Assembly: GCA_017468465.1 (NCBI GenBank)
Contig: JAFUIN010000014.1
Location: forward strand, 67,618 to 99,675
From: Clostridia bacterium
Lineage (GTDB): Bacteria > Bacillota > Clostridia > UMGS1840
Length of the DNA stretch: 32,058 nt
Direction: 5' to 3'
The position numbers were made by a program, and so were the translations under genes. The notes under the pieces were generated by a model. That model saw only the letters and a program-made list of their open reading frames with translations, made no database searches and was not told the origin of the DNA. Of this stretch, positions 22,084 to 25,039 are shown in pieces. Numbering within the stretch: position 1 is the first letter of the stretch; the number at the start of each line of letters is the position of its first letter.

Positions 22084-24807
22084 TTAATAATTGTCGCCGT
22101 TTACATCCACAACTACAATCAGTTTGGTGTCGCCATCGTAACAATAAACATATACAAAGTCATCATTGGTAAGCTGACCTGCATTTCTGTAATCACTTGT
22201 AATATAATCGGTTTCTGCATCCATAATGCTGGAAACTTTATATTTTCCGGTCTGTGCATTGTAGTAGTAAGCGATTTCATTAACGTTAACGGTTACATCG
22301 GTGATCAGTTTTTCATCGCCGTCTTTTAGTAAATCATATTCTCTGCCGGTAGCAGTAAAGGTGGTTTCGTAATTATCAACATTTAACAGTCTTAACAGAC
22401 TGCCCTGCACTCTGTATGCCACGCCAACAGCGCCGTAACCTTTGATAGAACCAGCAGATGCTGCTTTTGCCATTCTACCTTGTGCGATTGACATTGCACG
22501 ATTTGTATCCCAATCTGCTTCAATGTTTAATTCTGTAAATGAAGATGTATTAAGTGTTATTTCATCGTATGCTACGTCATCTGTATTATAGATGGTGTTC
22601 GTTTTACCGGTCGCTTCAATGACAGCTCTGCTGTTATCCGCTACAATAAGTTCACTGCCGCTCTTATAAACTAACCGCTTTGCATCTGTAATTTCGCCAC
22701 CGGGGAATATACTGTTGTTATTTATGGAATATAGAGCAATATCTCCCGCATTAAGTTTTTTGGCCTCATCAGAAGCATCTTCTGCTAAAAGGCAGCTAAC
22801 CTCTTCACCATTTATGTATCCGGTAAATTTGATGCGATCTTTTCCTTCCAGTGTGACAGTTTCTTTTTTGACAATCAGTAGCGGAATATAGTCGGATTCA
22901 AAAGAATCTTCAACTTTTATCATTGAGTATACAACAACTGCAATAATATTTTTTTGGTTGTCAAATAATACACCAAATTCATATTCAGCTTCATCTACCA
23001 ATTGATCTTCGGTTAGTAATGTAATTTCTTCGTTGTTTTCGACAAAATCGCTCATTCCAAAGAAAATAGTATCATCTGTAAGGTAATAGTTTCCGATTTT
23101 TCTTGCACTTTGATTATAAATACCATTTTGGGAAGCGATCTTTTCATTATTTTTCAAAACGTTTCTGTTATAATAATCATCTTGTATATCATAAGCAAAA
23201 ATTTCATTTTGATCATTTAATAAATAACAAATAATAAAGCCTGTCGGTAATGCTGATTTTAATTCTGTATCCGTTGTCCAGCTTTGAGAAGAATTATTTA
23301 TGGTTTCTGCCAAAGGATATTGGATTGTTTCCCCTTCAGTTGTATAAAGAGTTATCTGACAGGAACTGTCGTTATTGATTTTTGCATCCAGGATAACGCC
23401 GACATTTGCAATAAAAGCATGTTCCATAGATATCACAGTGTCATCAAATACATAGGCATTGACTACATCTCCAGAACGAAAAGCGTGATTTGGTATAGTT
23501 AAAGTAGAATATTCTTTACCATTTATTTCATATTTTGCCATTCCTGAGATATCTGTATAGACTGTGTTAATTTCACCTGAAATAAATTCAGGATTTTCTA
23601 CAGTAATATCATAGTAAGTATATTCATCGTCGATAGACGGTTTAATACGAATGATTTGACCTGCAGTAATCTCGTCAAAATCTATATTCATATCATATAT
23701 TGTATAACTATCATCCGGATCTAACTGAAGCGATGTTCTTTCATATGTTCGCATTGCTTCCGTATCTACATAAATTTTTCTTGTGCTGTAGTTCACCGTT
23801 CTGACCATAAATATTTTTTCGTAGTCTATATATACTGTGTCGTATAAATTATCTAAGTCGGTATCCACGTAACGGTATTCCTTGATTTGGTCGTCATATC
23901 CTTCAATAATTTCAGAATAAGAAGAGGGTTCATAATTTCTATATACTGCAACAGAATCTGCTAACGGTAACATTGAAAGAGAGGTGTCGGTTTGGGAGGA
24001 ATAGTACAGCACTTCCCCTTCTCCGTTATCTTTTGATGCTAAGTTTTCTGGTTTTATAGAAATAGTCTTGTTGTAATTTTCAATCGGTTCTGCCCAACGC
24101 AGTTCATATGTACCGTCATTTAGTATGTTAATCATAATACGGCAATATAAACCTTGCACTTTGTATAGTTCGTCCCATTTATTTTTTGTAACTGTTATAT
24201 TTTGTCCCATAACAAAATGATCTTCTGTATAACCTGCGTCTGTTGCGCCTTCGAACAGCAACACGTTGTTCATGACCTTAGTAGATACCGTGGTTTCTAC
24301 GTTGTGTATAGGTACATAGGGGATGATACCATCAAACTGCACAAATTTAAAATAATCCATATTGGACCGGATAATTTCATTAGTTTCCCCTACTGCTCTT
24401 CTGATGGTTCCCTCGGGAGATAAGGTGTCTAAATTGTCAATCATGATAAGCTTAAATCGATAATACTGAATGCTTGGATTTGTAATACGTACTTCCGGAG
24501 TATACCAGTACCAGTCATGCTCTATAAATGGATTTTCTAAATGAATTGGTAAGTAAAATACATCTACTAACTGATTGCTTTCTCCGGCGTAAACAGCAAC
24601 ATAACATTCTGTATCAAGATTGCCTACTGTTCCCACTTCGCCATAGAAGTTAATCGAAAGTCTTACTAAATCCTGCGACATAAATGTTGCGCTTGAAATG
24701 GAATAACTGAAATTCACCGGTTGTGGTTCTTCAGATGCAAAAACAGTTGTTGTCATTACCGTCAAAACAGTTAAAAGTAATGTGAGCATTTGTTTCAATT
24801 TTTTCAT
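22084..24807 (-). CDS. Large secreted protein of unknown function
   Basis: A 907-aa exported protein I do not recognise. It starts MKKLKQMLTLLLTVLTVMTT with a classic signal peptide (K-rich n-region, hydrophobic core, likely cleavage after VFA near residue 24). No lipobox, LPXTG, transmembrane tail or SLH repeat is visible, so how it stays at the surface, if it does, is unknown. The mature chain is acidic, Tyr- and Asn-rich and beta-like throughout; segments in the middle (ANVGVILDAKINNDSSC, then LYTTEGETIQYPL) resemble small beta domains that I recall from SLH-bearing Clostridia surface proteins. No catalytic motif was found. AAAGGATGG precedes ATG 24807; codons further upstream in frame cross the leader terminator and are rejected. 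Its transcript begins with the foldable leader at 24831-25006, so expression is probably conditional. Confidence 0.8.
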   Translation of the reverse strand: MKKLKQMLTLLLTVLTVMTTTVFASEEPQPVNFSYSISSATFMSQDLVRLSINFYGEVGTVGNLDTECYVAVYAGESNQLVDVFYLPIHLENPFIEHDWYWYTPEVRITNPSIQYYRFKLIMIDNLDTLSPEGTIRRAVGETNEIIRSNMDYFKFVQFDGIIPYVPIHNVETTVSTKVMNNVLLFEGATDAGYTEDHFVMGQNITVTKNKWDELYKVQGLYCRIMINILNDGTYELRWAEPIENYNKTISIKPENLASKDNGEGEVLYYSSQTDTSLSMLPLADSVAVYRNYEPSSYSEIIEGYDDQIKEYRYVDTDLDNLYDTVYIDYEKIFMVRTVNYSTRKIYVDTEAMRTYERTSLQLDPDDSYTIYDMNIDFDEITAGQIIRIKPSIDDEYTYYDITVENPEFISGEINTVYTDISGMAKYEINGKEYSTLTIPNHAFRSGDVVNAYVFDDTVISMEHAFIANVGVILDAKINNDSSCQITLYTTEGETIQYPLAETINNSSQSWTTDTELKSALPTGFIICYLLNDQNEIFAYDIQDDYYNRNVLKNNEKIASQNGIYNQSARKIGNYYLTDDTIFFGMSDFVENNEEITLLTEDQLVDEAEYEFGVLFDNQKNIIAVVVYSMIKVEDSFESDYIPLLIVKKETVTLEGKDRIKFTGYINGEEVSCLLAEDASDEAKKLNAGDIALYSINNNSIFPGGEITDAKRLVYKSGSELIVADNSRAVIEATGKTNTIYNTDDVAYDEITLNTSSFTELNIEADWDTNRAMSIAQGRMAKAASAGSIKGYGAVGVAYRVQGSLLRLLNVDNYETTFTATGREYDLLKDGDEKLITDVTVNVNEIAYYYNAQTGKYKVSSIMDAETDYITSDYRNAGQLTNDDFVYVYCYDGDTKLIVVVDVNGDNY

Positions 24808-24830: not shown

Positions 24831-24870
24831 AAATAAAAAAAGTGTGCAATCCAATCAAAGAAAGCACACC
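24831..24870 (-). terminator. Leader terminator hairpin with U tract, upstream of the secreted-protein start
   Basis: On the minus strand GTGTGC (24869-24864) pairs with GCACAC (24847-24842) around a 16-base loop, followed at once by seven T residues (24841-24835), an A and more T. It lies between the promoter and the start codon, so readthrough is required to express the gene. The stem is short (6 bp), which suits a conditional terminator. Confidence 0.7.
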
Positions 24871-25006
24871 GAAAAATGCACTGCTCTGATTGTTTGGCAC
24901 ACAATTTTCATCCCTAAGATTGGTATATGAAAAACAGAGTGTACATTTTTACCAAAACAGTAAAATTATACACCTAATCTCAAGAATTTATTCTCTTGTG
25001 TGCCAA
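24871..25006 (-). promoter_or_regulatory. Putative riboswitch/attenuator sensor region, class unknown
   Basis: The predicted RNA begins at or within TTGGCACACAA (25006-24996), which pairs perfectly with TTGTGTGCCAA (24904-24894): an 11-bp closing stem P1. Inside, AGATT-A-GGTGTAT (24980-24968) pairs with ATATACC-AATCT (24928-24917), 12 bp with one bulged A and one G-U. Within that, TTTTAC/GTAAAA (24965-24960 with 24952-24947) closes a 7-base loop. The 3' strand of P1 contains GTGTGC (24902-24897), identical to the 5' arm of the downstream terminator, and can capture the terminator's GCACAC. CAATCAGAG (24892-24884) with CTTTGATTG (24860-24852) extends that alternative fold. I see no hallmark bases of the common riboswitch classes. 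Confidence 0.6.
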
Positions 25007-25010
25007 TTTC

Positions 25011-25039
25011 ATAATATCATACTTGTTTGAAAAATGCAA
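25011..25039 (-). promoter_or_regulatory. Extended -10 promoter of the secreted-protein gene
   Basis: Minus strand TTGCAT (25039-25034), 17 bp, TATTAT (25016-25011) preceded by TGA. Transcription would start near 25004, the first bases of the P1 stem. An AT palindrome (25043-25058) just upstream could serve as an UP element. Confidence 0.78.

Follow-up and report, generated by a model that had tools for sequence, protein, structure and literature searches.

The window analysed here (the whole stretch of 32,058 nucleotides of Clostridia DNA) carries on its minus strand, at positions 25006-24835, one member of a family of structured leaders. Sequence comparison indicates that this leader is probably a cis-acting transcription attenuator belonging to a new orphan class of riboswitch-like RNA. 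It had been predicted earlier as an unassigned riboswitch-like attenuator in front of the gene of a large secreted protein; the observation is confirmed and that interpretation is partly supported. The family spans many gut and rumen Clostridia, where it lies before genes for adhesin-like, dockerin, S-layer and lipoprotein products, and identifying its signal would reveal what the carriers sense on changing their surface. Candidate riboswitch classes that are multi-copy and this widespread rarely remain unlisted.

Re-reading the sequence of the window, we found all the elements of the original prediction in place: extended -10, P1, bulged P2/P3 arm, CAATCAGAG/CTTTGATTG pairing and terminator, all on the minus strand. 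The promoter (25011-25039) consists of TTGCAT (25039-25034), a 17-nt spacer and TATTAT (25016-25011), the latter being part of an extended -10, TG-A-TATTAT (25019-25011, with TG at 25019-25018). P1 starts 5 nt after the -10; in the predicted fold its 11 bp (25006-24996 with 24904-24894) close an aptamer-like domain. This domain contains the P2 arm (24911-24987, ends approximate) with a conserved asymmetric 3' bulge, CTCTGTTTTTCATA (about 24939-24926), and the P3 hairpin, in which GTGTATAATTTTAC (24973-24960) pairs with GTAAAAATGTACAC (24952-24939). The 3' strand of P3, AAAAATGTACACTCTG (24935-24950, hereafter S), is also the 5' strand of a pseudoknot with the linker that follows P1, CAATCAGAGCAGTGCATTTTT (24872-24892, hereafter K). 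The window's pseudoknot joins AAAAATGTAC to GTGCATTTTT (24950-24941 with 24881-24872), plus CTCTG (24939-24935) to CAGAG (24888-24884). Alternatively, K can pair with the 5' arm of the terminator to form the antiterminator hairpin CAATCAGAG/CTTTGATTG (24892-24884 with 24860-24852, and inner pairs). The intrinsic terminator is weak, with a 6-bp stem (GTGTGC, 24869-24864, and GCACAC, 24847-24842), a 16-nt loop and seven T (24841-24835), and it lies 27 nt upstream of the ATG of the controlled gene (22084-24807). This gene encodes an exported protein of 907 amino acids with a signal-peptide-like start, MKKLKQMLTLLLTVLTVMTTTVFA, and no Pfam match was found for it. The folding energy of the leader is -56.1 kcal/mol, compared to -33.5 ± 4.1 kcal/mol for dinucleotide shuffles (z = -5.5; 0 of 200 shuffles as low).

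Homologues were first sought by blastn in the window's own genome and then in its genus, giving two diverged copies in the former and several more in the latter. A covariance model built on eight leaders from these copies, with the window left out (R1), recovered copies from every one of the five genomes of the genus and from another family of the order, and found the window leader with E = 6.6e-7. A pattern made of the P3 3' strand, the bulge and P2, run on an 84,980-species genome set, matched at least 118 contigs; among the matches listed, 80 of 80 are labelled Clostridia, mostly gut or rumen bins, and they include Ruminococcus bromii ATCC 27255, a Monoglobus and Eubacterium species. The R. 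bromii strain, which is cultured, carries a single copy (L100, 1339-1470, minus strand). In a second covariance model (R2, 67 leaders, the window being one training row) the window leader scored 90.3 bits (E = 2e-16), with 12.9 bits for the runner-up elsewhere in the window; the score stands far above chance because the leader has homologues at many other loci. At E ≤ 1e-4, R2 matched 84 of the 391 Clostridia genomes sampled, which belong to 50 of the 222 genera covered; at E ≤ 1e-5, 397 other genomes drawn phylum-wide gave no match, a result that doubles as a false-positive control; from these counts the family appears to be specific to Clostridia. Among the sampled Clostridia, copy number reached at least eight per genome and tandem copies occur. 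The 1.5-Mb genome of the window holds about 11 copies that differ in sequence (R1 and R2 places combined). At one locus (L060, 5741-5860) a 5'-truncated leader remnant is fused to the end of the upstream gene and is followed by an intact copy.

A phage origin was considered and rejected: the exact pattern had no match in 2.9 million viral contigs, a scan with a small downstream protein also gave nothing, and only two fecal 'phage' contigs match the leader. These are two unannotated 'Bacteriophage sp.' records matched by blastn, MT835845.1 and MT837627.1. The former (locus L196, 2076-2204, plus strand) holds a full leader (116 bits) directly before a lipoprotein-like gene, and may be bacterial DNA or a prophage. 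Plasmids were searched as well and contained no leader match.

The homologues share a conserved structured domain placed in the 5' leader. In a covariation test, P1, inner P2 and P3 were paired at 96.0%, compared to 85.7% in shuffled controls and 34-54% with slid partners, so that the covariation called for by the original prediction is indeed found in homologous leaders; cells in which both partners had changed numbered 163 in these helices, 41 being expected. Covariation is clearest in P1, which is 99.3/94.3% paired with many compensatory changes, one pair alternating between G-C, C-G, U-A and A-U. When partner strands were swapped between loci, a procedure that does not fully remove the effect of relatedness, P1 fell from -15.6 to -8.1 kcal/mol, with 0 of 3000 swaps as good as the native pairing. 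Inner P2 is 94.9% paired and has both sides changed at four of its seven pairs, while native P3 beat its swapped versions over 101 loci (0/3000). A GGTAA-type loop and the U-rich bulge are conserved, and P1 differs between copies of one and the same genome.

Three mutually exclusive helices are kept in 105 copies: the long-range pseudoknot, the antiterminator and the terminator. They share strands and each of them covaries, which amounts to an expression platform with alternative states: S:K and K:terminator 5' arm exclude one another since both use K, as do the antiterminator and the terminator since both use the terminator 5' arm. The S:K pairs are kept at 94.5% in 67 homologues, compared to 31-65% when slid; S itself varies little on the alignment because the search pattern partly fixed it. 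Swapping partners gets round part of this bias, and none of 2000 swaps matched the native S:K pairing over 105 loci. The same test gave 5 of 5000 within type A and 0 of 5000 within type B, type C having too few distinct members to be included, and 0 of 5000 for 27 loci that R2, and not the pattern, had retrieved, R2 itself having been trained on pattern-chosen sequences. The paired segments are AAAAATGCAT-GCTCT with GAGC-TATGCATTTTT in the common type, AAAAAGTGT/ACACTTTTT in type A and AAAAACACA/TGTGTTTTT in others. Four type D copies with extra helices and a different arm retain S:K, and their local P3 is weaker or absent. The pairing of K with the terminator 5' arm reached -13.3 kcal/mol, compared to -9.8 kcal/mol after swapping (0/2000), and CAATCAGAG/CTTTGATTG, originally proposed as an antiterminator core, belongs to this pairing. 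K and the terminator 5' arm covary as well in the 39 copies that have no gene close by (0/3000). The terminator arms covary likewise (-18.1 native, -13.2 kcal/mol swapped; 0/3000).

Part of the earlier model did not hold. The P1 3' strand had been proposed to capture the 3' arm of the terminator, yet over 80 loci this pairing scored -6.8 kcal/mol natively and -6.6 kcal/mol after swapping, with 253 of 3000 swaps as good, and only 6 of the 80 loci share a 6-nt match between the two segments; it is thus not conserved. The idea of mutually exclusive states stands for pseudoknot, antiterminator and terminator. It fails for P1 and the CAATCAGAG/CTTTGATTG hairpin, because the minimum free energy fold of the window RNA contains both together.

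Across the family the layout of promoter, RNA and terminator is fixed: about 6 nt separate the -10 from P1, and about 20 nt separate the T-run from the start codon. In 57 of 80 homologues the end of a -10-like hexamer (at least 5 of 6 matches to TATAAT, background about 2% per position) falls 5-7 nt upstream of P1, and in 33 of them the distance is exactly 6 nt. Given this conserved spacing, transcription should start at P1 and not downstream of it, in line with the promoter placement first proposed. The distance from T-run to start codon has a median of 20 nt (IQR 19-24 nt). By a strict rule, an ATG-initiated ORF with a ribosome-binding site follows within 60 nt in 60 of 105 copies and is absent in 45. 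Signal-peptide-like starts, called by the same crude rule for genes and controls, were found in 31 of the 34 such adjacent genes with a product of at least 150 aa, compared to 147 of 521 control ORFs (28%). Pfam domains encoded downstream of the leaders comprise BspA-type LRR, dockerin, S-layer, Ig-like and DUF6273. A second group of downstream products is made of small cytosolic and cysteine-rich proteins. The cysteine-rich ones (MIIDGPTGIELIPGN..GKDCPGNGENGNECCCDECNY) recur directly behind leaders, often several per genome (loci L016, L018, L024, L030, L031, L032, L035 and L039). Another small-protein family (.DYKKLYFHLFGKVADVIEEY..) lies behind type A leaders in two genomes (L015, L017, L020 and L021), two of these loci (L020 and L021) having an aspartate-semialdehyde-dehydrogenase-like gene further downstream.

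We propose the following mechanism. RNA polymerase would start at P1, as the conserved promoter spacing suggests, and P1 and P2, which covary, would form a scaffold. S would pair either with its local partner in P3 or, as a pseudoknot, with K behind P1, while K could alternatively pair with the terminator 5' arm. In the predicted OFF state S holds K; the antiterminator would then be blocked because K is occupied, the terminator would form and transcription would stop, a direction that follows from the pairing. In the predicted ON state S would be kept in P3, leaving K to form the antiterminator, and the downstream gene, usually coding for an exported protein, would be transcribed. The choice would most likely be made by a candidate small molecule at the core formed by P1, P2, the bulge and the pseudoknot. 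By rough energy sums, pseudoknot plus terminator lies about 12.7 kcal/mol below P3 plus antiterminator, before any pseudoknot penalty, so that OFF may be the default of the RNA when nothing is bound; folding during transcription could favour the local P3 first. A putative ligand seems somewhat more likely to bind the pseudoknot form, which would make an OFF switch, than the P3 form. We regard as evenly balanced the prediction that the family is a riboswitch class which senses a small signal, either a gut metabolite or a second messenger other than c-di-GMP, for a regulon of several genes encoding exported and surface proteins, and which does so by letting one strand switch between a local hairpin and a long-range pseudoknot. 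What speaks against a small-molecule riboswitch is that the downstream genes share export and not a pathway, since targets sharing no pathway are unusual for metabolite riboswitches.

The same attenuator could instead be sensed by an RNA-binding protein or another trans factor which, by holding P3 or the pseudoknot in place, would determine whether termination occurs. Functionally unrelated exported proteins and many copies per genome resemble a protein-controlled regulon, and the conserved GGTAA-type loop and U-rich bulge would suit it; however the conserved core is large, with a pseudoknot woven into it, most protein-binding leaders need less than that, and no candidate protein was found. 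We consider this reading possible, though rather doubtful. We give little credence to the idea that the copies are trans-acting small RNAs, each about 170 nt long and built as a stand-alone promoter-RNA-terminator unit, with downstream genes expressed through leaky read-through. Every unit, tandem copies included, does have its own promoter and terminator and some copies lack a close gene, but a small RNA would not need the antiterminator that covaries even in those gene-distant copies, and the distance from terminator to start codon is tight.

Two further explanations seem to us very improbable. The hairpin might only end the upstream operon, an alternative already raised with the original prediction: no other terminator-like site was found in the window between the DUF896 gene and the leader. 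As a main role this is rejected because the same arrangement of promoter, leader and terminator is seen again, about 20 nt ahead of start codons, in many contexts that are unrelated; its own promoter precedes the hairpin, and the antiterminator and pseudoknot are conserved. The leader might also be a miniature transposon-like inverted repeat whose RNA folding is incidental, as could be suggested by the many and tandem copies and by P1 strands resembling terminal inverted repeats. Against this, P1 differs among copies within one genome, which leaves no single shared repeat, the spacing of promoter, terminator and start codon is fixed, and no match was found in plasmids or, with the exact pattern, in the viral contigs.

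At the gathering score, Rfam 15 gave no match over the leader in the window or at 18 homologous loci, in agreement with the earlier view of it as unassigned, and permissive Rfam scans of the leaders of the window and of locus L097 returned weak chance matches to miRNAs or sRNAs only. We found no description in the open-access papers searched; a large list of human-microbiome RNAs (PMC8040213) may hold the leader as an unnamed candidate. Clostridiales-1 and Gut-1 are structured RNAs of gut bacteria found by comparison and listed as not cis-regulatory (Weinberg et al. 2010, PMC2864571); the leader differs from both, as their models (RF01699 and RF01706) do not match it. Gut-1 was reported from human gut metagenomes only (PMC2864571), and we observed a Gut-1 RNA (RF01706, 72.7 bits) in a genome bin from the same order as the window (L042, 1906-1977, minus strand), with a leader copy a few hundred bases away.

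A leader-peptide attenuator starting at AAAAATG was also rejected, no short ORF being conserved: the start codon is absent at the candidate place in 25 of 105 copies, candidate ORFs range from 6 to at least 50 codons, and the bulge spacing of 6 or 7 nt breaks the frame. Like T-box leaders, the family is promoter-proximal with exclusive terminator and antiterminator, but there is no Rfam T-box match, no UGGN bulge was seen in the antiterminator and the downstream genes are not amino-acid related. The c-di-GMP-I and -II riboswitches occur in many copies per genome, also in tandem, and have surface-protein targets in Clostridia. Our leader resembles them in all these respects but matches neither GEMM model, and a search for GGDEF domains gave nothing in 6 of the 16 genomes with leaders that were examined (G000, G025, G235, G253, G274 and G379), among them the genome of the window, which is 96% complete. 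A c-di-GMP riboswitch was rejected on these grounds, and c-di-GMP is unlikely to be the ligand.

Pseudoknotted transcriptional riboswitches include the ZTP, fluoride and preQ1 types. Pseudoknot-based attenuation is itself a known way of working, and it is the leader family that is unlisted in Rfam 15. The leader resembles these types in having a closed aptamer-like domain directly before a gene, with a pseudoknot whose partner, a downstream linker, is also involved in deciding whether the terminator forms. Apart from the lack of an Rfam match, it differs from them by a longer and different P1-P2-P3 hairpin arm, by a pseudoknot strand with an alternative partner in a local hairpin, and by its position mostly before genes for exported proteins.
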